A stretch of 64,000 bases of DNA from Rhodospirillales bacterium. Its GTDB lineage: Bacteria > Pseudomonadota > Alphaproteobacteria > Rhodospirillales > Rhodospirillaceae. A program made the position numbers and the translations under genes. The notes under the pieces are model-generated. The model worked only from the letters and a program-made list of their open reading frames with translations, was not told the DNA's origin and ran no database searches. Of this stretch, positions 6,374 through 54,120 are shown one piece after another. Positions within the stretch are counted from its first letter, which is position 1; each line of letters starts with the position of its first letter. The stretch lies in contig JANQJD010000002.1 in assembly GCA_028281845.1 (NCBI GenBank), forward strand, positions 62,001 to 126,000, written 5' to 3'.

Positions 6374-8701
6374 ATGTGTTTTTCTCTTGAGACGACCCTA
6401 GCCGTGAATCTCGAATGGGAACGCCTAACGTATAGGATAAGATCCTGCGGCGCAAGCCATCTCCTCCGTGTTGGGAGGTGGCATCTCATCCTGATCCTCT
6501 TAGCCACCTCCTGGCTGTTGACTGTGTCGGCAAGTGGGGTCGCTCTCTCTGCGGGAACGGTGAAAGGGGTTTCCGAACGACAGGCTGGGGTACAAGCTCC
6601 GCCAGTGTCCTTACAATACGATGTCAGTACGGCTGATTCCAGCGCTTCTCCATGGGTGCGCAGTCCACAGGGAGCCGTGCGACTCGTTTCCACTGTGACT
6701 GGTGTGGGCACTGGTCAGTCGATTCGACTCGGCCTGCAGTTTCATCTGCAGCCGCATTGGAAAATCTATTGGCGCACCCCGGGAGATGCTGGTTATCCTC
6801 CCACCATTGACTGGAGTGGCTCCCAGAATCTTTCTGGGATTAGTATTGCCTGGCCAGCTCCACGTCGCTTCAGCTTCCGAGGAATTGAAACTGCTGGTTA
6901 TGAAGAGGAAGTCGTCTTTCCCATCACTGCGACCCTAGAAAAACCGGGTGTTCCTTTCAATGGAAGATTAATAGTAGAATTTCTTACATGTGCTGATTTT
7001 TGCGTGCCACAACGGGCTGAAGTAAACCTCCTGATTCTGGATGGGCCGGCAAAACTCTCTCCCTTTATGCATCTTGTCGAACGTCATGCCGCCCGTGTGC
7101 CTGGTGACGGTCGAGCTGCCGGATTGCGCTTAATCGCAGCAACACTTAAAAAAGAAAAAAAAGAAAATTTTATTGACGTTAAAGTCGCAAGTACATTTCC
7201 TTTCAGAACACCAGATCTGTTTATCGAAGGTCATGGTGACGATACCATACACGCCGGTACACCACAGATTACTCAACAGAGTCAAGATGGCCGGCAAATT
7301 GTGCTGCGCGCATCAACAAGGAGTCCCGTGGCAGTCGGAACGCTCGCCACACTCACGGTCGTTGATGGTCTCCGTGCCTTAGAGGCCACCATACCGCTAT
7401 CTTCAGTAGTTAAAGTTCATGATGAGACAACAAAATCAGATGTCGCGATCATACTCGGCCTTGCCTTTCTAGGCGGGTTCATCCTGAACCTTATGCCCTG
7501 CGTGTTGCCAGTGCTGTCCATCAAAGTCATCACACTGGTCGGCCATGGCGGCACTGAAAAACGGGCCGTGCGATGGCGCTTCTTAGCTTCGGCGGCTGGC
7601 GTCCTGTTCTCCTTTCTGCTAATCGCATTAGCGACAATTACGCTCCAGGCCGCAGGGGCAGCGGTGGGATGGGGCATGCAATTTCAACAGCCGCTGTTCT
7701 TGTCTGTTCTCATCATCGTGCTTGCCCTCTTCACCGCGAATCTATGGGGGGTGTTCGAAATTGTCCTGCCGTCGTGGCTGACGGACAGAATTGGTGGTGT
7801 GTGTACATACGGCTACATTGGCGATTTTCTTACAGGGATTTTCTCCACTCTGTTGGCCACCCCATGCTCGGCCCCTTTTCTGGGCACAGCCGTGGGATTT
7901 GCCTTGGCTCGGGGGCCTTCAGAGATCTTGATGATCTTCACCATGCTGGGTCTCGGTATGGCAATGCCGTACGTCCTAGTGGCTCTTTTCCCGATTCTAG
8001 CCGCTCGCTTACCAAGACCTGGTCCATGGATGATACATCTGAGGAAATTTGCAGGAATTATTTTATTTATAACAATAATTTGGTTATCTTCTATACTATG
8101 GATTCAAACAGATCAAAAAATTATTATATTAATATTACTAACAATATTATTTTTATTTCTTCTTAAAAAGAAGAAAATAACAAAAATATTATTAATTTCA
8201 TTATTTTTAGCATTTATAATGCATTTTTCTTTCCTGCGGAAGGAAAGACATACACCATGGTTACCATTTGACGAAACGGCCCTTGCCCATCATGTAGCTG
8301 ACGGGCGAGTGGTTTTCGTCGATGTCACAGCCGACTGGTGCATTACATGCCAGATCAATAAGGCACTTGTTCTTTCGCACAGAGAAGTGGTGAAGCGCCT
8401 GCATAATGTAGTGGCTATGCAGGCGGATTGGACCAGGCATGATGGGAGAGTCTCTGCCTATTTAGCAGGCTTTGGCCGTTACGGCATTCCATTCAATGTC
8501 GTTTATGGGCCAGGCGCCCCACAGGGGCTACTCCTGCCGGAACTTCTCACGGCAGAGGGTGTGCTGAAGGCATTGGACGTGGCAGCTGGGCATGTTTCTT
8601 CACTTCACTATGACGGCACGGCCCTCATAATCTCATACATAATGAGGAGAAGATCATTGCTCCATGTCCCGTCGCCTCATGTGTGCCTTGAGCCGATCTA
8701 G
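6374..8701 (+). CDS. dsbD: Thiol:disulfide interchange protein, DsbD/ScsB type
   Basis: A 775-residue membrane protein that passes electrons from cytosolic thioredoxin to periplasmic thiol proteins. The periplasmic N-terminal domain has a ScsB-like cysteine pair, C206 and C210 (LTCADFCVP). The membrane domain (about 355-615) carries the paired redox cysteines C376 in NLMPCVLPVLSIK and C498 in ATPCSAPFLGTAVGFA. The C-terminal thioredoxin domain has C656-C659 in TADWCITCQ. All redox cysteines are kept, so it is probably functional. Codons about 555-620 (8035-8240) are extremely AT-rich and encode Ile, Leu, Lys and Phe runs in the last membrane helices. The final 15 residues run into the 3' end of the M32 pseudogene on the other strand. 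Confidence 0.93.
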   Translation: MCFSLETTLAVNLEWERLTYRIRSCGASHLLRVGRWHLILILLATSWLLTVSASGVALSAGTVKGVSERQAGVQAPPVSLQYDVSTADSSASPWVRSPQGAVRLVSTVTGVGTGQSIRLGLQFHLQPHWKIYWRTPGDAGYPPTIDWSGSQNLSGISIAWPAPRRFSFRGIETAGYEEEVVFPITATLEKPGVPFNGRLIVEFLTCADFCVPQRAEVNLLILDGPAKLSPFMHLVERHAARVPGDGRAAGLRLIAATLKKEKKENFIDVKVASTFPFRTPDLFIEGHGDDTIHAGTPQITQQSQDGRQIVLRASTRSPVAVGTLATLTVVDGLRALEATIPLSSVVKVHDETTKSDVAIILGLAFLGGFILNLMPCVLPVLSIKVITLVGHGGTEKRAVRWRFLASAAGVLFSFLLIALATITLQAAGAAVGWGMQFQQPLFLSVLIIVLALFTANLWGVFEIVLPSWLTDRIGGVCTYGYIGDFLTGIFSTLLATPCSAPFLGTAVGFALARGPSEILMIFTMLGLGMAMPYVLVALFPILAARLPRPGPWMIHLRKFAGIILFITIIWLSSILWIQTDQKIIILILLTILFLFLLKKKKITKILLISLFLAFIMHFSFLRKERHTPWLPFDETALAHHVADGRVVFVDVTADWCITCQINKALVLSHREVVKRLHNVVAMQADWTRHDGRVSAYLAGFGRYGIPFNVVYGPGAPQGLLLPELLTAEGVLKALDVAAGHVSSLHYDGTALIISYIMRRRSLLHVPSPHVCLEPI

Positions 8702-9800
8702 TGGCGTCTCTCAAAAGGTCATCAGCACTTCAAGAAGAATGAACCGAGCCGTGCGCGTGCAGCACATGAGAGCGCAGCCATGTGAGGAGAGGTGTGAAAT
8801 TGCCTTTTGTCAAGCCAGGCTTTTCGTATCTGCCCGACAGGTCGAATAATTGAGCCGCCATCATGGCACCTAGGGTTTAGGTGGGCTCACACAGAGGAGG
8901 CGGGTCATAGTCTCACCCAGGGCTGCGCCGGAATATTAGTAATAGAAAGTTGATTAAATGAAGTGGATTAACTTTTAAGAGTAAAAAAATGACATGGGCC
9001 AAAATGTTGCATAGGGAAGAAACTCCCGTCCGCCTGCATTTCGATTAACAGCGCTCGTACTGCAAGCTCTCCCAAAGGGTTGCCAGCGCCACGCGCGTAG
9101 CAGACTGAATTCGTACAGGGCATGGCATGACCTGTCGGCTAGATGTGCAGTCAGCTCTATCGTAGCGGGCCGTCATGCGCACATCATCACAGGTGCCTCC
9201 GCAGAACGGGTGGTGACGTGACTCATCTCCAGCCGTCCATGCTGCCAGTCGAAACCGAGCGCCGCCATGAACCGCAAATCTAACTGTCGCTGTGTCTCTA
9301 GGGGCAAAGTCCCTGCTGGGCTGTTTCTCTGTTTTTGCCGCCGTCAGAGCCGAGTAGGGTAGTAGGGTAGGGAGAAAGTCCTCAAGTCCTCCTGCTGCGC
9401 GTCTCGCCTGTCTGCCTGTCGCCTGTCGCCTGTCTATCAGAATACCCTGTTCCTACTGGTCCAGTGGTCCAGCAGAGCCTCATAGGGCAAACACCGTTTG
9501 TCTTGTCCAACCTGCTGCACGCGGGGCACCAGTTCTGCTCTGTGCCAGGCGGGAGAAGTCAGGCACAGAAAGAGCTTCTCGCCAGCGTATTTCACAAACA
9601 AAGAGACTCCATCCTTGCCAATGCTGCAGTGCTGCAACGAGGTCAGATGGCACAGCGGTCGCATGGACACACCCGTGCCGCATTGCGCGTAGGTTAGCAG
9701 CTGCCCATGGGTCCTCAGAAGGAGTCGACTTCTTCTAACCAGGCTCCTACTGCCGTGATCTCGGCCTGGCTGCGAGCGCTCCCAGGGGGGATCATAACAG
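8650..9800 (-). pseudogene. Decayed M32 (Taq-type) carboxypeptidase
   Basis: No intact gene fits here, but the minus strand in shifting frames gives successive fragments of an M32 metallocarboxypeptidase in the right order. Near 9690 are EDPWAAANLRAMRHG and HATAVPSDLVAAL. Near 9470 is YEALLDHW. Near 9270 is RQLDLRFMAALGFDWQHGR. Near 9210 is CDDVRMTARYDRAD. A damaged active site (CHALYEF, where intact enzymes have HEXXH followed by ALYE) is near 9140. Near 8870 is PT-stop-TLGAMMAAQLFD, with a stop codon where Tyr is expected. Near 8790 is FTPLLTWLRSHV. Several frameshifts and stops separate these, and the N-terminal part is missing. The peptidase is certainly dead. Its position explains most of the 1.3-kb gap between dsbD and cobO. 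Confidence 0.85.
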
Positions 9801-15570: not shown

Positions 15571-17373
15571 ATGAGTGACCTGTCTTACATTCGTAACTTC
15601 ACAATCATCGCCCACATTGACCATGGCAAGTCAACTCTAGCCGACCGTCTCATTCAGCGGTGTTGCAGCCTGGGGGAACGGGAGATGAAGCAACAAATGC
15701 TCGATTCGATGGATATCGAGCGCGAGCGTGGCATCACTATTAAAGCACAAACTGTACGGTTGCAATACACGGCTCGAGATGGCTCAATTTACCAATTAAA
15801 CATTGTAGATACACCAGGTCATGTAGATTTTTACTATGAAGTAAGCCGATCTCTTACAGCCTGTGAGGGATCTATCTTGGTGGTAGACGCCTCACAGGGT
15901 GTAGAGGCCCAGACTCTGGCCAATGCCCATCTGGCCATTGAGGCCGGGCACGAAATTCTTCCTGTCCTGAACAAAATAGACCTGCCTGCAGCAGAACCCA
16001 AGCGTATCCTGCAGCAAATGGAGGACGTGCTTGGCATTAAGGGTAGCCATGCGCTTTTAGTTTCTGCCAAAACGGGTTTGGGCATTGACAATGTACTGGA
16101 ATCCATCGTGTGCTCTTTGCCCCCGCCTCTCGGTGAGAGAGAGGCACCGCTGAAAGCGCTGTTGATAGATTCCTGGTACGATACTTACCTCGGGGTTGTC
16201 ATTCTGATCCGAATCAAGGACGGAGTATTAAAAAAAGGTCAGCGCATTCGCATGCTGGCGACCAATGCGACCTACCAGGTTGATCGCATTGGCTATTTTG
16301 TCCCCAAGATGATTATGGGAGAATCCCTCACGCCGGGAGAGATCGGCTATATCACGGCCGGTATTAAAAAAGTTGCTGATTGCCGTATCGGCGACACATT
16401 AACTGACGGGCACTCTCCGATCACTACGGCACTGCCTAGTCCAAAAATACCATCAAAAGTAGTATTTTGTGGTATATTTCCAACAGATTCCTCTTTTTAC
16501 ACATTGCTACGCGAAAGTTTAGAAAAACTTTCCCTGAATGATGCAAGTTTCAGCTATCTCCCTGAAACTTCCGCTGCCCTGGGATCTGGTTTCCGCTGTG
16601 GTTTTCTTGGACTCCTGCACATGGAAATTATACAGGAAAGACTAGAGCGCGAATTCCACGTGGATATAATCACTACTGCACCAAGCGTCGCCTATCGTGT
16701 CCATAAAAAAAATGGTACACTACAAGAACTACATAATCCAATAGACATGCCGGATCGTAGCACGATCAGTTATATTGAGGAGCCCTGGGTTCTGGCGACT
16801 ATTTTGTTACCAGACTCTTATTTGGGTGCTGTTTTTTCTCTCTGTACAGAGAGACGTGGTCAGCAGCGTGACCTGATCTATAAAAGTGGCAGGGCTCTCA
16901 TGGTCTACAAACTGCCGCTGAACGAGGTCGTTTTTGATTTTCACGACAGACTGCAATCTCTCTCGCGTGGCTATGCGAGTTTCAACTACGAAATGGCTGA
17001 GTATGCGGCTAGCGATTTAGTCAAAATTACTATTCTTGTGAATGGCACGTCTGTGGACGCTCTTGCCTTCATTGCCCATCGCGGAACGGCAGAGAATCGC
17101 GGTCGGCAAATCTGTGAACGGCTTAAAGAACTCATTCCACGCCATCTGTTTAAGATTCCCATTCAAGCAGCCATCGGGGGGCAGGTCATCGCCCGTCAGA
17201 CTATTCCAGCTCTGCGTAAGGACGTGACGGCCAAGTGCTATGGTGGCGATATCACACGTAAGCGCAAGTTGCTCAACAAGCAGAGAGAAGGGAAGAAAAA
17301 AATGCAGCAGTTCGGCAAAGTTCGGATTCCCCAGTCTGTCTTCATCAAGGCCCTGCGTCTTGGACAGGAATAA
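15571..17373 (+). CDS. lepA: Elongation factor 4 (LepA back-translocase)
   Basis: Ribosome-associated GTPase that affects translocation and assembly. The 600-residue length is standard. G motifs: [14 protein letters not shown] (G1), [12 protein letters not shown] (G2), DTPGHVDF (G3, followed by Tyr where Ala or Ser is common), NKIDLP (G4) and VSAKTG (G5). The LepA-specific C-terminal domain ends [20 protein letters not shown] and [12 protein letters not shown]. Two or three AT-rich stretches (15785-15850, 16440-16520, 16625-16750) interrupt GC-balanced codon use, one of them across the invariant G3 motif. Confidence 0.97.
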
Positions 17374-18311: not shown

Positions 18312-23758
<5,447 letters not shown>

Positions 23759-24814
23759 ATGACGGGTTTGCGCAACACGACGGTTGCCCAGCTCAGCGAG
23801 CGGTCACGCGATATCTTCCGTCGTATTGTCGATGCCTACGTGCGCACGGGCGACCCTATTGGCTCTCGTACCCTGGCGCGGCAATTTGGAATGGATCTCT
23901 CTCCGGCCACCATTCGCAATGTCATGGCCGATCTTGAGGAGGCCGGCTTGTTGCGGGCCCCGCACAGTTCGGCTGGGCGGCTGCCGACAGAGGCTGGCTT
24001 GCGACTTTTTGTAGACGGGCTTTTGGAAGTCAGCGATCTCGCGGAAGAGGAACGCCGCTACATCGATACTCAGTGCCAGACGGCTGGCCGTAGTGTTGAA
24101 GATGTCCTCGGCGAGGCCACGGCCGCTCTGTCTGGCTTGTCCCATTGCGTTGGCCTGATGATGGCACAGAAGCTGGAAAGCCCGCTGAAACATATCGAAT
24201 TTATTAATCTCGGCCCTGGAAGGGCTTTGGTCATTCTCGTGGATGACAAGGGTTTAGTGGAAAATCGCATCATTGACATACCGGACACGGTGTCAACCAC
24301 AGCGCTGATCGAGGCGACGAACTTCCTGAATGCTCGTATTCCTGGTTTAACACTTGAAAAAGCACGTGAAAAAATTTTGGTAGAAGTGGAGGGAAAACGG
24401 TGCCAACTCGACGCCCTGACGAGCAGGGTAGTAGAGGCAGGTCTGGCTATCTGGAACAGCCGTATTGGTGGGGGTGTCTTGATTGTGCGAGGCCAGTCGC
24501 ACCTGTTAGAGGACGTGACGGCGCTTGACGACATAGAACGCATCAGAACACTGTTCGAAATACTGGAGAATGGAGAACGTGTTTTGCGCCTTTTGGATCA
24601 GGCCCATCGAGCTGATGGGGTGCAAATTTTCATTGGTGCCGAGAACAAGTTGTTCTTGATGGCCGGTTGCTCTATGATCATCGCCCCCTATCGGAATCGG
24701 GTGGAACAGATTATCGGTGCCATCGGTGTTGTTGGCCCGACTCGTATCAACTATGCTCGCATCATCCCGATGGTGGATTATACGGCAAAGATGATCGGTC
24801 GTCTTATAGGATAA
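23759..24814 (+). CDS. hrcA: Heat-inducible transcription repressor HrcA
   Basis: Repressor of chaperone genes that binds CIRCE elements. The 351-residue length is normal for alphaproteobacteria. The N-terminal winged helix is clear: LSERSRDIFRRIVDAYVRTG, DPIGSRTLARQFGMDLSPAT (reads GSRTLAR...LSPATIRNVMADLEE) and the APHSSAGRLPTEAGLR wing. The dimerisation core and the terminal GPTRINYARIIPMVDY are intact. grpE follows 55 bp downstream on the same strand, the usual hrcA-grpE pair. The rph gene often found divergent to hrcA is not here. Confidence 0.96.
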   Translation: MTGLRNTTVAQLSERSRDIFRRIVDAYVRTGDPIGSRTLARQFGMDLSPATIRNVMADLEEAGLLRAPHSSAGRLPTEAGLRLFVDGLLEVSDLAEEERRYIDTQCQTAGRSVEDVLGEATAALSGLSHCVGLMMAQKLESPLKHIEFINLGPGRALVILVDDKGLVENRIIDIPDTVSTTALIEATNFLNARIPGLTLEKAREKILVEVEGKRCQLDALTSRVVEAGLAIWNSRIGGGVLIVRGQSHLLEDVTALDDIERIRTLFEILENGERVLRLLDQAHRADGVQIFIGAENKLFLMAGCSMIIAPYRNRVEQIIGAIGVVGPTRINYARIIPMVDYTAKMIGRLIG

Positions 24815-27312: not shown

Positions 27313-27440
27313 CGTTTGTCCATCTCAACTATTAACCCATGCTAAGCATGTTATGAATACGCAACGATCACAATCTCTTGGAGACAAGCCAGTGACAAAA
27401 GTTGCGTTGCCGGCTTTTCGCAGCAGGAACAGTGTTATGA

Positions 27441-27585
27441 GCGATGATTTCCGTTTATAGCGATGATTTCCGTTTATAGCGATGATTTCCGTTTATGATG
27501 ACGGCACACAGACCCAGAAGGGAGCAACAGCTTCCCCAGGGAGCAACAGCTTCCCCAGAGGCGTCCAGAGGCGTAGAGGCGTACA
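27441..27585. repeat. Compound tandem repeat block upstream of pncB
   Basis: GCGATGATTTCCGTTTATA (19 bp) occurs three times at 27441-27496, the last copy missing one base. About 25 bp on, GGAGCAACAGCTTCCCCAG (19 bp) is perfectly doubled at 27521-27558. AGGCGT then occurs three times at about 27558-27582. This is the densest slippage-type block in the window. Confidence 0.95.
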
Positions 27586-27651
27586 GTCAGATCCGTGGGT
27601 CAGATTCGTGATTTCCGGGCGGCTCCACGAAGGGGCAAGGATGGTGGACGT

Positions 27652-34263: not shown

Positions 34264-35126
34264 CTATCTTCTCGTTTAAGGGTAATATCCGGAAGAATAC
34301 CACTTAAACCATAATCAACTAGAAGAGCATATTCTATTGTTGATGTATTGACAAAAGGTTTTACTTCTATTAAAGAATCTTTAACATGTGTAACTATCCC
34401 TACAGGGATATCAGGGGGAAACGCATAGGCGTCTTCGGCTGTGACGACACGGTTGCCAGGAGCGATGGGACCATCACCTATCATGTAGATGAGCTGTAGC
34501 GTGCCTTTGTTCGCAATGAGCAGGGCCCTATTGCGGGATGGTGTGACAACGACTGGAATCCTCGAGTGAATATCCGTCAGCAGCAGGATGCTTGCTGAAA
34601 GGCTTCCGACTCTGTCCACACGCCCGGCCAGTCCTGCCCCTGTCACCACAGCTTGGCCCTTACGTACCCCGTCCCGTCTGCCAGCATTGAGCAGGGCAGA
34701 GCGGACGAATGGCCCATCAGTCACGGCAATGATACGGGCAGAGATGAAGGAAGCAGTGGGGCCTGGGACGACCTTGAGAAGACTGCGTAAAGCGTGATTC
34801 TCACCCTCGAGATGACGAGCCACTGCCTGCCAGTGTAGGAGGCGCACATTTTCCTCATGCAGGCGGGTATTTTCCGCCCGCAGCATCACAAGATGGCGGA
34901 CGTTTTCGACAAGGATAGCGACGTTGGCAGCAGGGCGTGACAGAATCTCCAACAATGGTGTGAACGCATCACCGATGCCAGCCCGCAGCCTGTCAACCAG
35001 CAACGTCTCCGCCTTGCCTAACAACATCAGCCCAAACGCTATCATCATAAGAGTCAGGAACGTGAATCGGTGCAGCAACAACCGGAAAGCCATGAGCCGG
35101 GAGACATGACCTGCGGGCGGCTTCAC
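34260..35126 (-). CDS. mreC: Rod-shape determining protein MreC
   Basis: Bitopic elongasome protein linking MreB to PBP2. The 288-residue chain has an N-terminal membrane helix (FTFLTLMMIAFGLMLL), a coiled-coil stretch with VENVRHLVMLRAENTRLHEE, and the periplasmic beta-barrel part with VTDGPFVRSALLNAGRRDGV, GQAVVTGAGLAGRVDRVG and LLLTDIHSRIPVVV. The end of the gene (34290-34400) is AT-rich with clustered ATA, TTA and AAT codons. Stop and mreD start overlap by four bases. Confidence 0.94.
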   Translation of the reverse strand: MKPPAGHVSRLMAFRLLLHRFTFLTLMMIAFGLMLLGKAETLLVDRLRAGIGDAFTPLLEILSRPAANVAILVENVRHLVMLRAENTRLHEENVRLLHWQAVARHLEGENHALRSLLKVVPGPTASFISARIIAVTDGPFVRSALLNAGRRDGVRKGQAVVTGAGLAGRVDRVGSLSASILLLTDIHSRIPVVVTPSRNRALLIANKGTLQLIYMIGDGPIAPGNRVVTAEDAYAFPPDIPVGIVTHVKDSLIEVKPFVNTSTIEYALLVDYGLSGILPDITLKREDR

Positions 35127-38850: not shown

Positions 38851-39750
38851 ATGACAAGAGCGACCATCATCGATGGCAGGACTTATGCGGCGGAAATCCG
38901 TCTACAGTTAGCCAATTATGTGAGCGAGTTGTGCGATTCTCATCACATCATTCCTGGATTAGCCATTGTATTGGTGGGCCATGATCCGGCCTCACAGGTT
39001 TATGTTCGTAACAAGCACAGGCAGGCTCAGGATATTGGTATGCACTCATTAGTAAGTTTGTTATCAGAAAATGTAGAAGAAAAAGAATTAATTGATATTA
39101 TTGAAGGTTTTAATTGTAATACTGCAATTAATGGTATTGTTGTTCAGCTGCCCTTACCGGCCCATATGGACACACAGCAGATCCTCAACACCATCGATCC
39201 CTCGAAGGATGTGGATGGTCTTCACCCTTGTAATGCAGGACACCTCTGTGCTGGCAGCGACAGGGGAATCACTCCGTGCACCCCTCTTGGGTGTCTCAGG
39301 CTGCTGCGGCGGCAGCATCCGAGCATGAACGGCATGCGTGCTCTAGTCATCGGCCGTTCCAACATTGTTGGCAAGCCCATGGCCCATCTGCTTGTCCAGG
39401 AAAACTGCACAGTCACGATTGCTCATTCTAAAACACGTGATCTGCTGCAAGAATGCCGCAGGGCGGATATAGTTATTGCGGCCGCCGGTCAGGCAGAGAT
39501 GGTTCGAGGGGACTGGGTCCGCCCTGGTGCTACTGTGATCGATGTGGGCATCAACCGTGTTGCTTGCCAAGAGGGCAGCGGTATGAGCGTCTTAGCTGGT
39601 GATGTCTGCTTTGCGGAAGTGGTCGAGGTGGCCGGTGCTGTTACACCTGTACCCGGTGGAGTTGGTCCTATGACGGTTGCGATGCTTTTGCGCAACACAC
39701 TGCTTGCCTTTTTGCAACAGGTTGGCGTAGAGAAAGGTTTCTGCGCGTAG
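38851..39750 (+). CDS. folD: Bifunctional methylenetetrahydrofolate dehydrogenase / cyclohydrolase
   Basis: Interconverts 5,10-methylene- and 10-formyl-tetrahydrofolate using NADP. Motifs are [20 protein letters not shown] (active-site Tyr and Lys), [55 protein letters not shown] and [19 protein letters not shown]. Length 299 is normal. Codons at 39050-39140 are strikingly AT-rich ([13 protein letters not shown]). The stop is followed directly by the duplicated hisF start region. Confidence 0.96.
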
Positions 39751-41390: not shown

Positions 41391-42935
41391 TCATCGACTG
41401 TTTTTGAGAATCCATAAAAACAAAAAATAGCGAGTGACCATCAGAGCTGAGAACATAGAGGTGAGGATACCAAATCCCAGTGTGACGGCAAAACCGCGCA
41501 CCGGCCCAGATCCAAAATGGAAGAGGAGCAGAGCGGCGATGAGCGTGGTGACATTCGAATCTATGATAGTGGTGAAGGCCCGCTTGAATCCAGCCTCGAG
41601 AGCACTGGGTATCGAAAGACCATTCCGCCTTTCCTCTCGCACGCGTTCGTAGATCAGAACGTTTGCGTCAACGGCCATGCCAAGAGTCAGGACAATACCG
41701 GCAATGCCAGGGAGTGTGAGTGTCGCCCCTATGGCACTGAGGAGACCGATCAGCAGCACAAGGTTGACCAGTAACGCAAGATCAGCAAAAAGGCCGAACA
41801 GGCCATAAATTGCTCCCATGAAGACTATTACCAATCCCAGCCCGATAACACAGGCGATTGCACCGGCGCGGATAGAATCCACCCCCAAGCTAGGGCCAAC
41901 AGTTCGTTCTTCAAGGTAGGTCAGCGGCGCTGGCAATGCGCCAGCCCGTAAAAGCAGAGCCAAATCCTGTGCCTCTCGCACGGTGAAGCGGCCGGAGATG
42001 ACACCGCTGCCGCTGAGAATAGGCTCTCGGATGACTGGGGCACTAATAATCTTCCCATCTAGGACAATCGCCAGCCGTTTGCTGACATTCTCTTGCGTCA
42101 TCTTGCCAAACTTGCGACCCCCTAGGGGGTTGAAGCGGAATGTCACAACTGGCTGGCCGTTTTGGAAAGAGGGTTGGGCATCAACGAGATCCTCCCCTGA
42201 CACCACTACACTCTTCCGGAGAGGGAGCATGCCTTCCCTGGAATCGGCACTGGGGAGAAGACGTGTGCCTGGTGGAACATGACGATCGGCGCTGTCCCCT
42301 CTGTTCACTCGCTCGTCTACGAGATGCAGAGTCAGCTTAGCGGTGCGGCCAATCAAGTGCTTAATGCGGGCGGGATCAGCCACCCCTGGCAGTTCAACAA
42401 TGAGACGCTTGCTCCCCTGGCGTAAGAGGACGGCCTCCCGTGTTCCCGATTCGTCGACACGCTGGCGAACAATTTTTATCGCTTGTGTCACAATGTTATC
42501 ATACAATTTTTTTAAGTATTCCGCAGAATATCTTAAATGAAAAGTGTCATTACTCCTTTGCTCCATCCTGACAGAAGGATCTAACTCGTGGACGAGTCGT
42601 CGTGCTTTTTTGTGCTGGTCAGCATTCGGAATAACGACGGTCACGCCTTCTGTGGTCACTGTTAGATTCCGCTGGAGAACGCTTGCCCGACGTAAGCTCG
42701 CTCTGAGGCTCTCTGCCATGTTGATGAGTTGTTCGTGCACCACATCATGTACACCGACATCGATCAGGAGATGAGAACCTCCTTGTAGGTCAAGACCCAA
42801 AGGAACTGGCTGCAACCAGACTGGCAGTCTGGCAACAAGTGGACGGCTGAGAATGTTCGGCACAGCGAACAGGATGCCGAGTGCACAGACAAAAACGGTG
42901 AGAGCACGCTTCCGTTTCGAGAAGTAGAGCATCAT
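41391..42935 (-). CDS. secD: Protein translocase subunit SecD
   Basis: Proton-driven membrane component that helps complete Sec-dependent export. The 514-residue protein has an N-terminal helix, the D-motif VPLGLDLQGGSHLLIDV, the large periplasmic P1 domain (FRFNPLGGRKFGKMT, GKIISAPVIREPILSG) and five C-terminal helices with SLGVDSIRAGAIA, LTLPGIAGIVLTLGMAVDAN and VLIYERVREE. It follows yajC as usual, but secF, normally next, is missing. Instead the HIT gene ends 75 bp away on the other strand. A patch at 42480-42550 is AT-rich. Confidence 0.96.
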   Translation of the reverse strand: MMLYFSKRKRALTVFVCALGILFAVPNILSRPLVARLPVWLQPVPLGLDLQGGSHLLIDVGVHDVVHEQLINMAESLRASLRRASVLQRNLTVTTEGVTVVIPNADQHKKARRLVHELDPSVRMEQRSNDTFHLRYSAEYLKKLYDNIVTQAIKIVRQRVDESGTREAVLLRQGSKRLIVELPGVADPARIKHLIGRTAKLTLHLVDERVNRGDSADRHVPPGTRLLPSADSREGMLPLRKSVVVSGEDLVDAQPSFQNGQPVVTFRFNPLGGRKFGKMTQENVSKRLAIVLDGKIISAPVIREPILSGSGVISGRFTVREAQDLALLLRAGALPAPLTYLEERTVGPSLGVDSIRAGAIACVIGLGLVIVFMGAIYGLFGLFADLALLVNLVLLIGLLSAIGATLTLPGIAGIVLTLGMAVDANVLIYERVREERRNGLSIPSALEAGFKRAFTTIIDSNVTTLIAALLLFHFGSGPVRGFAVTLGFGILTSMFSALMVTRYFLFLWILKNSR

Positions 42936-42951: not shown

Positions 42952-43437
42952 TCAGGAAAAGGCTCTATGGATCAGATTCCCCTGCCCCAGCAGCTTTCTT
43001 AGGCTGTGAACGTGCCCCTCCCCACTCTCCCTCCCACTCACCCTATTGTGTCCTCTCCCATCTTGAGGAGCGGAATCTTCCGTCTCGCCTTTCCCATCTA
43101 CCCTGTTCTTGCTACCGCCAGGCTCTGCCTTGTTGATAACGTTTGTTATGGTATCACGAACTATTTTTACACGTACATTATCAGATATTTCAACTAAAAC
43201 TTCATTATCATTAATGATCTTAACTATTATTCCAATAATTCCTCCACCAGTTACTATTTTATCTCCACGCTTAATGGAATGCAACAACTCTCGATGTCGT
43301 TTTAACTTTTTCTGCTGCGGTCTGATGACAAGAAAATAGAAGACAAGGAAGATCAAACCAAACATTAAGAGCGTGTTGAGGAACTCTGCTGTACCCTGTT
43401 GGGATGTCTGGGCGTAGGCTGTGGAAATGAAGATCAT
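42952..43437 (-). CDS. yajC: Preprotein translocase accessory subunit YajC
   Basis: Single-span membrane protein associated with SecDF. The ATG at 43437 has GAGGAG at good distance; a GTG at 43467 in frame is less supported. The helix LLMFGLIFLVFYFLVIRPQQ with KKLKRHRELLHSIKRGDKIV, then TGGGIIGIIVKI, is diagnostic. The C-terminal 50 residues beyond the core are hydrophilic and not conserved, making the protein longer (161) than common homologues of about 110. Bases 43130-43270 are very AT-rich. Confidence 0.93.
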   Translation of the reverse strand: MIFISTAYAQTSQQGTAEFLNTLLMFGLIFLVFYFLVIRPQQKKLKRHRELLHSIKRGDKIVTGGGIIGIIVKIINDNEVLVEISDNVRVKIVRDTITNVINKAEPGGSKNRVDGKGETEDSAPQDGRGHNRVSGRESGEGHVHSLRKLLGQGNLIHRAFS

Positions 43438-44440: not shown

Positions 44441-44539
44441 CGCTCAAAATATATATTCTTTAATATAAGAAGATTATATTTAGTAAATTATATTTAGTAT
44501 AAGTAAATTATATTATTTATTTCATTATATGATTATATG
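44441..44539. repeat. AT-rich repetitive spacer between convergent genes
   Basis: The gap between the DUF815 and truA stops is nearly all A and T. Imperfect repeats of AAATTATATTTAGTA and related words run through it. No gene or clear hairpin terminator can be assigned. Confidence 0.7.
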
Positions 44540-45277
44540 TTAGTAGTTGACAGCCGTTAGGTACAGCCCGCAGGCTGGAGCCGTTGGACCACCAGCACGG
44601 CGGTCACGGGCGGCGAGTGCTCGTCTTAAGTCTGATTCTGTCCATTGCCCTTTACCGACAAGCCGTAACGTTCCCGTCATATTGCGGACTTGGCGGTGCA
44701 GAAAAGACCGGGCGCTGGCGATGATCGAGACGACTTCCCCATCTGTGGTGACCGTTAGGCTATTGAGCGTACGAACAGGGGATTCCGCCTGGCACCCGCT
44801 AGCACGAAATGTGGAGAAATCGTGCCGGCCCAGTAGACATTGCGCGGCCATTGCCATGGCTTTCACATCCAACAGATCCGGCACCCACCATGCGCGGCCA
44901 TTATCTAAAATTAAAGGTGCTTTTCTATTAATTATCTTGTAAGAATAGACTCTTTCTGTGGCAGAAAATCTAGCGTGAAAATTCATATCAACTTTTTCTA
45001 CCATAAGGATAATTACCGGATATGGTTTCAGGTGGGCATTCAGAGCGTCGCGGACTCGCTCCGGTGCATCAGTCTCTGGTAGATCGATGTGGGCTACCTG
45101 ACCCAAAGCATGGACACCAGAATCAGTGCGACCGGCTCCTTCTACGACCACTGATCTTTGACGAAAAGCCAATGCGGCTGCCTCGACAACCCCCTGGACG
45201 GAGAGACCATTATTTTGACGTTGCCAGCCAACAAAGAATCTACCGTCATACTCGAGCGTCAGTTTATAACGAGACAT
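44540..45277 (-). CDS. truA: tRNA pseudouridine(38-40) synthase
   Basis: Modifies uridines 38-40 in the anticodon stem of many tRNAs. The ATG at 45277 gives MSRYKLTLEYDGRFFVGWQR and 245 residues; the frame extends 26 codons upstream without conservation. The catalytic Asp is in VEGAGRTDSGVHALGQVAH. Further motifs are NFHARFSATERVYSYKI, FSTFRASGCQAESPVRTL and SFLHRQVRNMTGTL. The fmt gene usually upstream is not here. The stretch 44900-45005 is AT-rich despite encoding conserved residues. Confidence 0.96.
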   Translation of the reverse strand: MSRYKLTLEYDGRFFVGWQRQNNGLSVQGVVEAAALAFRQRSVVVEGAGRTDSGVHALGQVAHIDLPETDAPERVRDALNAHLKPYPVIILMVEKVDMNFHARFSATERVYSYKIINRKAPLILDNGRAWWVPDLLDVKAMAMAAQCLLGRHDFSTFRASGCQAESPVRTLNSLTVTTDGEVVSIIASARSFLHRQVRNMTGTLRLVGKGQWTESDLRRALAARDRRAGGPTAPACGLYLTAVNY

Positions 45278-45386: not shown

Positions 45387-47177
45387 TCAAAAAGCCTCTT
45401 CTGGTAAGGCCATGACAGATTCTTCCCCGGTTGTTACCACAGTCAGGAGACTCTCTGTTTGTGGCAAAATTTGCTCGGCATAGAACCGCGCTGTCAACAA
45501 CTTTGCCTTCAGAAAAGGGTGATCGGCCTCCACAGGGAGCCGGGCTACTGCGAGAGCAGCCTTAGCAAACATAAAGCCCCCCAGCGTTAGACCAAAGAGA
45601 TGCAGATACGGGACGGCACCTGCTTGTGCTGTCACAGGATTATCCCGGTCTACCAACCAAGATGTTGCTTTCCCCAGAGCGGCACAAGCCTTCTGCAGGC
45701 CTGTCTGCAACGGCTGGACAGCACTCCCTGAGACGCTCAGAGCAGAGATGACCGCGTTTATTTCTGCTATCATGTTCTGTACTTCTGCGCCCCGATTTCT
45801 TACCACCTTACGGCTGACCAAATCATTGGCCTGAATACCGTTCGTGCCTTCATAGATTGCAGCGATACGGGCGTCCCGCCAGTACTGCGCGGCCCCTGTA
45901 GTTTCGATAAAGCCCGCACCACCATGGACTTGGAGACCAAGATTGGCTACTTCCATGCCAACATCAGTCGACCAGGCCTTCACAATGGGAGTTAACAACG
46001 CAACACGTGCCGCAGCTGCCCCGCGCACATCCCCGTCCGGATGTGCGCGGGCGATGTCCACCCGCGCTGCGGTGTAGTACGCCAGGGCGCGAGTCGCTTC
46101 TGTGAGGGATTTCATGGTCATCAGCATGCGGCGAACATCAGGATGGTGGATGATACTGACCGCCCCTGAGCGGCGGCCAAACTGCAACGCATAGCCCTGT
46201 ACGCGCTCACGTGCATAATCTCTCGCCTTTTGATAGGCACGTTCTGAAAGCGCTACCCCTTCAAGCCCCACAGAGAGTCGGGCGTGATTCATCATCGTGA
46301 ACATGTATTCAAGACCGCAATGTGCCCTGCCAACAAGATAACCAATAGCACCATCATCATCCCCCAGGCTCATCGCTGCAGTCGGGCTGGCCCTGATTCC
46401 CAGTTTGTGTTCCAGTGACGAACACCAGATATCGTTGCGACGATTCAGTGCGCCATCTTCTGCAACTAAAAATTTTGGAACAATGAAGAGGGAAATCCCC
46501 TTAACTCCAGCAGGCGCGTCAGACATGCGTGCAAGTACAAGGTGTATGATATTTTCTGTCATATCATGATCACCGTAAGTTATAAAACTTTTATAACCTA
46601 TCAATTTATAAACGTTATCGTGCCCTGCCAGGGGCAGGGCACGAGTCTGTATCAAGGAAAGATCAGAGCCCGCTTGTGGTTCCGTGAGATTCATAGAACC
46701 AGTCCACTCACCAGAGACAAGGCGTGGCAGGAATAAGGATTTCTGAGACTCTGACGCATGAGCGAGCAGCAATTCTACCGCGCTCTGAGTCAGCATTGGG
46801 CACAGCCCGAATGACATATTCGCTGCATGCCATATTTCCTGCACGGCAGTGTGCAGCACCCATGGTAAAGCCTGTCCACCAAATTCTCTTGGAAAGGGCA
46901 AACTGTTCCAACCACATTCTACAAAATGGCGATAAGCGTCGGCAAAGCCTTCCGGCATACGGACTGTACCGGATTCCAACACGGCGCCCTCCTGATCGCC
47001 ACTCTGGTTTAACGGTGCGAGTACGTTCACTCCAAAGCGGTCTGCCTGCTCAAGAATAGCACTCACAAGATCTTGGGTCACTTCCGCGTAGCCAGGGAGA
47101 GCTTGAATGGCAGCAAAGTCCGCGACATGGTCTAAAGTGAATCGCATATCCTCAACGGGTGTTGCGTAGTGCGTCAT
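45387..47177 (-). CDS. Acyl-CoA dehydrogenase (long form with C-terminal domain)
   Basis: FAD-dependent enzyme introducing a double bond into acyl-CoA. The 596-residue length and the C-terminal extension (ALSVSGSAVQPLQTGLQKA onward) match the AcdA-like family with an extra C-terminal domain rather than classical 380-residue enzymes. Visible motifs are GWNSLPFPREFGGQALPWVL, NLTEPQAGSDLSLIQTRA, FIVPKFLV, NHARLSVGLEGVALSERAYQ, QVHGGAGFIETTGAAQYWRD and IYEGTNGIQANDLVSRK with the catalytic Glu. The ATG at 47177 is chosen. Substrate length cannot be inferred. No thiolase or hydratase gene is adjacent. Confidence 0.93.
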   Translation of the reverse strand: MTHYATPVEDMRFTLDHVADFAAIQALPGYAEVTQDLVSAILEQADRFGVNVLAPLNQSGDQEGAVLESGTVRMPEGFADAYRHFVECGWNSLPFPREFGGQALPWVLHTAVQEIWHAANMSFGLCPMLTQSAVELLLAHASESQKSLFLPRLVSGEWTGSMNLTEPQAGSDLSLIQTRALPLAGHDNVYKLIGYKSFITYGDHDMTENIIHLVLARMSDAPAGVKGISLFIVPKFLVAEDGALNRRNDIWCSSLEHKLGIRASPTAAMSLGDDDGAIGYLVGRAHCGLEYMFTMMNHARLSVGLEGVALSERAYQKARDYARERVQGYALQFGRRSGAVSIIHHPDVRRMLMTMKSLTEATRALAYYTAARVDIARAHPDGDVRGAAAARVALLTPIVKAWSTDVGMEVANLGLQVHGGAGFIETTGAAQYWRDARIAAIYEGTNGIQANDLVSRKVVRNRGAEVQNMIAEINAVISALSVSGSAVQPLQTGLQKACAALGKATSWLVDRDNPVTAQAGAVPYLHLFGLTLGGFMFAKAALAVARLPVEADHPFLKAKLLTARFYAEQILPQTESLLTVVTTGEESVMALPEEAF

Positions 47178-52807: not shown

Positions 52808-54120
52808 CAGCCTTGACTCCCCGTGAGATCGTCTCTGAACTGGACCGATTTATTGTTGGTCAAAAGGAGGCCAAACGTGCCGTTGCTGTTGCCCTCCGCA
52901 ACCGCTGGCGACGCCAACAGCTCTCTGACTCACTGCGTGAGGAAGTGTTACCGAAAAACATCCTCATGATTGGTCCCACAGGTGTTGGCAAAACAGAGAT
53001 TGCCCGCCGTTTAGCCCGTCTGGCGCAGGCGCCTTTTCTGAAGGTTGAAGCAACAAAGTTCACGGAAGTTGGGTATGTAGGTAGAGATGTCGAAAGTATC
53101 GTCAGAGATCTTGTGGAAACCGCTATCACAATCACCAGGGAAAGGGTACGCCACCAGGTGCGAGAGAAAGCAGAAAGCCTTGCGGAGGAAAGAGTGCTTG
53201 ATGCATTAGTTGGCACCTCAGCTCAGAGGGAGACACGCGCGAAATTCCGCAAGATGCTGCGAGAGAATCAGCTCAACGAGAGGGAAATTGAAATAGAACT
53301 CCAAGAAAGCAGCGCGATGAACATGCCTACAATGGATGTTCCTGGTATTCCTGGTGTCCAGATGGGAATGCTGAACCTTAATGATTTATTTGGCAAAATG
53401 TTCAGTGGTCGAACGAGAACACGGCGGGTGAGCGTGGGCGATGCACACGAACTCCTGATTGCAGAGGAAAGCGATAAGCTGTTGGATCAGGACAAGGTTG
53501 TGAGAGAGTCTATTGACGCCGTAGAAAACAATGGGATCGTCTTCATTGATGAGGTCGATAAAATCTGTGGCCGCGGTGAGGAACGCCTGGGCGGCGGTGA
53601 TGTATCCCGTGAAGGCGTTCAGCGGGATCTGTTGCCCTTGATTGAAGGCACGACAGTGGTTACGAAGTACGGCAGTGTCAAGACTGATCATATTTTGTTC
53701 ATTGCCTCTGGTGCTTTTCACTTGTCAAAGCCGGCAGATCTTCTGCCTGAACTGCAGGGAAGGCTTCCAATACGTGTTGAACTTCAAGCATTAACTCGTA
53801 ATGATTTTATTCGTATTCTCACGGAGCCAGAAACAAGTCTGATCAAGCAGTACAGAGCGCTTTTGGCGACAGAATCTGTCACGCTTGATTTCACCAATGA
53901 AGCTATCGCTGTCATTGCCGATTTAGCGGCGGAGATTAACCGTAACGTTGAGAATATAGGGGCTCGTCGGTTGCATACCGTTCTCGAACGGCTTCTAGAT
54001 GAGATTAGCTTTACAGCCACAGACAGGCCTGGAGAGCGCATATGCGTTGCAGCAGATATGGTTCATGAACGGGTTGGGGGCTTGGCTGAGAACGCCGACC
54101 TGAGCAAGTTCATTCTGTGA
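52804..54120 (+). CDS. hslU: ATP-dependent protease ATPase subunit HslU
   Basis: AAA+ unfoldase that feeds HslV. The 438-residue length is normal. [20 protein letters not shown] starts the protein. Walker A is [17 protein letters not shown], the pore loop is [13 protein letters not shown], Walker B is [14 protein letters not shown], followed by [19 protein letters not shown], sensor and [14 protein letters not shown]. The I-domain (residues about 110-240) is present, and the C-terminus LSKFIL fits the HslV-activating tail. It overlaps rlmE by four bases. Confidence 0.98.

Follow-up and report, generated by a model that had tools for sequence, protein, structure and literature searches.

A draft genome of a reduced-genome Rhodospirillales-group bacterium (hereafter G000; 1.33 Mb in 18 contigs) contains about 265 discrete AT islands, with a median length of 110 bp and ~23% GC, in a chromosome of ~50% GC. 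The geometry of the tracts, their sharp edges, raised silent divergence, A/T-directed substitution spectrum, persistence in a sister species and restriction to one genus among the genomes checked were observed directly. We favour, with moderate confidence, recurrent local in-situ mutation from any base to A or T, filtered by selection, as the explanation.

The stretch under study (the window) is 64 kb long, has 52% GC and corresponds to positions 62001-126000 of G000 contig C7. The one same-genus genome compared (G001) is a MAG, labelled 'Rhodospirillales bacterium isolate PL23a_bin.50' (contig JANQEW010000020.1). The PL23a prefix denotes MAGs recovered from Porites lutea coral skeleton (PMC9868349), and this sister species therefore likely has a coral-skeleton origin. 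G001 contig C11 is fully syntenic with G000 contigs C2, C3 and C7 at ~90% DNA identity, and the two-species comparison spans 266 kb of paired sequence.

AT tracts in the window

The original prediction, made from the window alone, listed AT-rich patches inside otherwise GC-balanced genes, foremost in dsbD. This patch is real and extreme, as the 100 bp from position 8115 are only 10% GC against 52% for the window. For each gene listed, the lowest GC3 over 20 codons was compared with 500 within-gene synonymous-codon shuffles. The minimum was beyond chance in dsbD, pncB, folD and mreC (0/500 shuffles each), and p-values were also low for yajC (0.002), gyrB (0.006), lepA (0.010), the helicase (0.026) and truA (0.042). 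Most of the list thus stood (nine genes), and it was weak on its own for secD (0.50) and acyl-CoA dehydrogenase (0.13), neither of which was significant by codon shuffle. Islands were called genome-wide with a two-state HMM on base composition at the bp level, and nine fall in the window. The tracts considered are as follows.

8045-8232, plus strand: AT island in dsbD (HMM), 15% GC (0.19 in G001), identity 0.68 versus 0.90 in the flanks, common to G001
8932-8990, no strand: intergenic AT island (HMM), 19% GC, AT-rich in G000 only
15772-15863, plus strand: AT island in the GTPase G3 region of lepA, AT-rich in G000 only, changes mostly silent, too weak for the bp-level HMM
16440-16535, plus strand: weaker AT tract in lepA, GC3 0.16 versus 0.32 in G001
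21282-21341, minus strand: short gyrB tract, AT-rich in G000 and G001 alike, GC3 minimum p=0.006
23536-23664, no strand: AT-rich DNA preceding the ORF at 23759 (HMM), conserved in G001 at 96% identity
27657-27751, plus strand: AT island at the start of the ORF earlier termed pncB (HMM), largely unalignable with G001
34293-34397, minus strand: AT island in mreC, at its 3' end (HMM and G001 comparison)
39048-39144, plus strand: AT island in folD, common to G001, identity 62% inside versus 91% in the flanks
42480-42550, minus strand: low-GC stretch of secD, codon-shuffle p=0.50 (not significant)
43130-43262, minus strand: AT island in the conserved YajC core (HMM), more AT-rich in G000 than in G001
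44446-44548, no strand: AT island directly downstream of truA (HMM), mostly noncoding, 11% GC, AT-rich in G000 only
44900-45015, minus strand: AT island in truA (HMM), common to G001
46554-46620, minus strand: weak AT tract in acyl-CoA dehydrogenase, p=0.13 alone
53764-53817 (C7:115764-115817), plus strand: AT tract in hslU with almost only silent changes, GC3 0.00 versus 0.33, silent change in 10 of 18 codons
63464-63540, plus strand: AT tract in a DEAD-box helicase gene (GC3 minimum and G001 comparison)

Four of these, i.e., 8932-8990, 23536-23664, 44446-44548 and the hslU tract, lie beyond the earlier list. The stretch at 23536-23664 differs from the other islands and is possibly an ordinary regulatory region. 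Reading frames stay intact across the patches, as had been stated. The dsbD island sits in the linker that separates the DsbD_TM and thioredoxin domains, and its DNA occurs only once in the genome, so there is no internal donor. The claim that patches may cover invariant motifs holds for lepA 15772-15863, where DTPGH is retained and the adjacent residue, S or A in every correctly oriented relative, has become Y. The HslU tract likewise carries a D/E to N change, and the available relatives' loci have D or E. The putative pncB ORF matched no Pfam family at E<=1e-8. Upstream of the ORF at 27595 lie two arrays of 19-bp tandem repeats (27435-27558), in a region that is shorter in G001. The search for RNA families in the window returned a tRNA and nothing else.

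Genome-wide census of the islands

The clustering of low GC3 that had been proposed as a check was borne out genome-wide. A third-position HMM found 319 GC3-poor tracts in G000 versus 27-40 in synonymous-codon shuffles that keep every protein, and 41 third-position AT tracts in G001 contig C11 versus ~0.5 after shuffling. Fourteen loci of GC-matched family relatives, with the GC3 of each locus as the basis for scoring it, had four tracts in about 65,000 codons, and LepA and DsbD of ~45 relatives, several at ~49% GC, showed a marginal excess at most. Given the excess in G000 and G001 and the near-absence in relatives, the pattern is strong and, among the genomes checked, limited to this genus.

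Island tracts are about 50-270 bp long. Just over half of the 265 (135) lie within ORFs, 61 run across ORF ends and 69 are intergenic, against a baseline of 83% of the sequence in ORFs. Within ORFs, fourfold and twofold sites in islands are both ~15% GC, compared with 44-48% outside. The proteins they encode are enriched 2-2.5 times in N, K, I and F and depleted in A, P, G, W and R. Identity among outgroup proteins is lower at island columns (0.50 vs 0.66), as is identity between G000 and the outgroups (0.39 vs 0.64); the islands therefore favour segments that vary among outgroups, and constraint contributes.

The islands gave only short low-complexity matches to one another, with no repeat family, mobile element or common context. 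No common motif was found among them, no strong 6-mer at their borders, and no near-identical second copy in the G000 genome. Text searches of open-licence papers returned no description of such islands.

Island density varies regionally, from 4-5% of bases in G000 contigs C16, C5 and C12 to 1.3% in C17. The mutS gene (G000:C16:129068-131749) is overlapped by three AT islands, and its full-length ORF remains and scores above the mutS1 cut-off. Nine contigs (C1, C4, C8, C9, C10, C11, C14, C15 and C18; about 106 kb) have no AT island and deviant codon usage at twofold sites, and are probably foreign to the bin, despite an estimated contamination of 0.01%.

Divergence from the sister species

The paired 266 kb hold 53 islands, of which 24 are common to G001, 25 are AT-rich in G000 only and four are unaligned. 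Identity is 0.69 within islands versus 0.89 in the flanks, and is equal for the shared and G000-only classes. The edges are sharp: background GC is regained after a few bases, and background divergence within ~15 bp. In noncoding DNA, GC content is 50% and divergence 21% outside islands, versus 19% and 40% inside.

At fourfold sites, G/C-to-A/T differences reach 0.76-0.82 inside islands versus 0.155 outside, and A/T-to-G/C differences are not raised (0.09-0.10 vs 0.156), both being figures for the G000/G001 pair that are not polarised by a close outgroup. The most telling figure is the frequency of A↔T differences (0.16-0.23 inside vs 0.029 outside, i.e., 5-8 times commoner inside), because choosing islands for low GC cannot inflate it. 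The G000-only tracts contain 64 G/C-to-A/T transitions and 44 transversions, with A↔T differences raised as well, and a strand-coordinated pattern of C-to-T changes alone was not seen in them.

Several tracts, i.e., C3:16802-16888 (in a putative aspartokinase), C2:57885-57953 and C2:106531-106602, have no amino-acid change yet 36-41% of their codons are silently altered. Outside islands, silent differences are near-random in position, with no autocorrelation beyond ~100 bp, which argues against a genome-wide recombination mosaic.

Origin of the islands

Under recurrent in-situ mutation, short tracts would gather substitutions in place several times faster than neighbouring DNA, and these would end nearly always in A or T regardless of the starting base. 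Purifying selection would preserve reading frames and key residues, with islands persisting best in weakly constrained segments and intergenic DNA. AT-rich tracts may reinforce themselves, as they would melt more easily, suffer more lesions and receive A at bypass. Insertion of dAMP at abasic sites is known as A-rule bypass (PMC4167244); it predicts changes from any base to A or T, A↔T transversions included, and so would match the island spectrum. The LepA S to Y and HslU D/E to N changes, unprecedented and AT-directed, count for mutation in place, and the mostly silent outcome in the lepA and hslU tracts argues against one unselected burst. Against this reading, there is no mechanism for the same ~100-bp tracts staying hot through speciation, and the G000-only islands are near the AT saturation of a donor, as import would yield. 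Among the causes originally offered, patchy repair loss under AT bias comes nearest to the data, in that the change appears local, AT-directed and accelerated in situ; the repair genes checked are present.

The main rival is short-patch import, i.e., repeated homeologous gene conversion in which an AT-rich relative, perhaps an unsampled and more decayed congener, supplies ~100-bp pieces, a reading that we consider possible but rather unlikely. Sharp edges, near-saturated G/C-to-A/T change in G000-only tracts and the presence of RecA are all as import would have them, and homeologous recombination is among three causes weighed for divergent short segments by Touzain et al. 2010 (PMC2884548). 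Segments of this size are too short for trees; a donor search with the LepA segment in 385 alphaproteobacterial genomes gave, among the matches listed, none above 84% identity, below the sister species (~88%). The LepA Y and HslU N were not seen in available relatives. The uptake gene comEC, found in four family relatives, is absent from G000 and G001. Islands common to both species have diverged to the same degree as the G000-only ones, which would demand repeated import with identical edges. As an extra-genus donor should alter residues, the silent-only tracts with protein identical to G001 speak against one and would place the donor within the genus. With no donor for the LepA segment, comEC missing and no mosaic outside islands, the earlier suggestion of local conversion by an AT-rich relative's DNA is disfavoured, though possible.

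Relaxed protein constraint under genome-wide AT-biased mutation, by which weakly constrained segments would decay to AT, is improbable. The lower conservation of island residues among outgroups, the N-, K-, I- and F-rich island proteins and the apparent variability of the dsbD, folD and mreC patches between G000 and G001 accord with it. However, silent sites change faster inside islands, purely silent islands exist, edges are sharp and noncoding DNA is 50% GC outside islands against 19% inside; as the sole cause it is therefore contradicted, in agreement with the earlier statement that it would not suffice alone. We consider it very unlikely that the tracts were selected as functional AT-rich or slow-codon elements, e.g., to pause translation, to act as internal promoters or to bind a silencer such as MucR. 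About half do remain AT-rich and in position in both species, but they diverge faster rather than slower, are missing from GC-matched relatives and share no motif or repeat; slow codons, another of the suggested causes, fit poorly with 69 of 265 islands intergenic and 61 over ORF ends. An assembly or binning artefact might be suspected in an 18-contig draft with some foreign-looking contigs, yet it is extremely unlikely, as the islands lie inside long contigs with intact frames, and about half recur in the independent sister assembly. The same recurrence and intact frames, with several silent-only tracts, contradict the mixed-strain assembly once proposed.

The islands fit the segments described by Touzain et al. 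2010 (PMC2884548), which are short, often intragenic and divergent with raised synonymous change, and for which homeologous recombination and mutation showers were left open. Like these homeologous microdiversity segments, the islands are short divergent blocks, often intragenic, that are clearly more diverged than their flanks and enriched in synonymous changes; unlike them, they are AT-extreme and directional, with hundreds of them in a single reduced genome, and about half persist in position between species. They resemble mutation showers or kataegis as dense substitution clusters in a short stretch, possibly linked to single-stranded DNA. Deaminase kataegis consists of same-strand C:G changes (PMC3628087), whereas the islands combine transitions and transversions, affect G and C alike, show raised A↔T change and are hit repeatedly over evolutionary time. 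The composition they reach, with N-, K-, I- and F-rich proteins, is that of AT-biased endosymbiont decay, but here it is limited to sharp ~100-bp tracts and the rest of the chromosome, noncoding DNA included, is ~50% GC. A-rule bypass would give the same any-base-to-A/T changes, including A↔T transversions, but is known as a lesion-bypass preference, whereas the islands are confined to fixed tracts. The variable region of a diversity-generating retroelement undergoes A-specific changes and depends on a template repeat and reverse transcriptase; no island has a near-identical counterpart elsewhere in the genome.

The usual picture of AT enrichment in bacterial genomes is one of even drift under mutation bias. 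In G000 the conversion proceeds in patches and is seen under way, with the flanks as an internal control and the sister species as timing. If the changes arose in situ, both the rate and the direction of mutation can vary several-fold within tens of bases and be stable across speciation, which lies outside standard models; if they were imported, hundreds of ~100-bp conversions came from an AT-rich donor yet to be sampled. Either outcome informs how short divergent blocks in bacterial genes arise and affects rate and dating work built on even silent rates.

Several possible triggers of in-situ mutation were considered. Loss of mismatch repair, of MutY/Nth-type glycosylases, of uracil glycosylase or of DnaQ proofreading was rejected, as MutS, the glycosylases, UDG and the DnaQ motifs for replicative proofreading are present in G000; RecA is present too. 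Loss of Y-family polymerases is not specific, since these are absent from G000 and G001 and likewise from one relative (G011).

An altered DNA polymerase I is a candidate, a speculative hypothesis that rests on a correlation in one lineage; patch synthesis at nicks might be uncoupled and error-prone. The polymerase matches in two pieces in G000 and G001, and in none of four relatives. In G000 (polA, locus L176), the 5'-nuclease domains are encoded at C17:324489-325484, and those resembling exonuclease and polymerase at C17:322595-324550 (a Klenow-like ORF); the split junction is itself an AT island (324442-324538), and coincides with a stretch of ~23% GC in G001 (C21, locus L292). The exonuclease motif DTET of G011 is CSKT in both species and the motif-III D is G or E, so that proofreading residues are lost (D to C, E to K, D to G/E). 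One may tentatively picture a self-sustaining local state, in a lineage with a split Pol I that has lost proofreading residues, in which ~100-bp hypermutable tracts turn any base to A or T and persist through speciation, and the genome goes AT island by island; we regard this fuller scenario as unlikely to hold as a whole. The polA gene is intact in G011, G018 and G014. In another family relative, G003, polA (locus L295) is missing the exonuclease motifs and is unsplit, and LepA has no island; therefore the split, and not exonuclease loss alone, must matter if polA is the cause.
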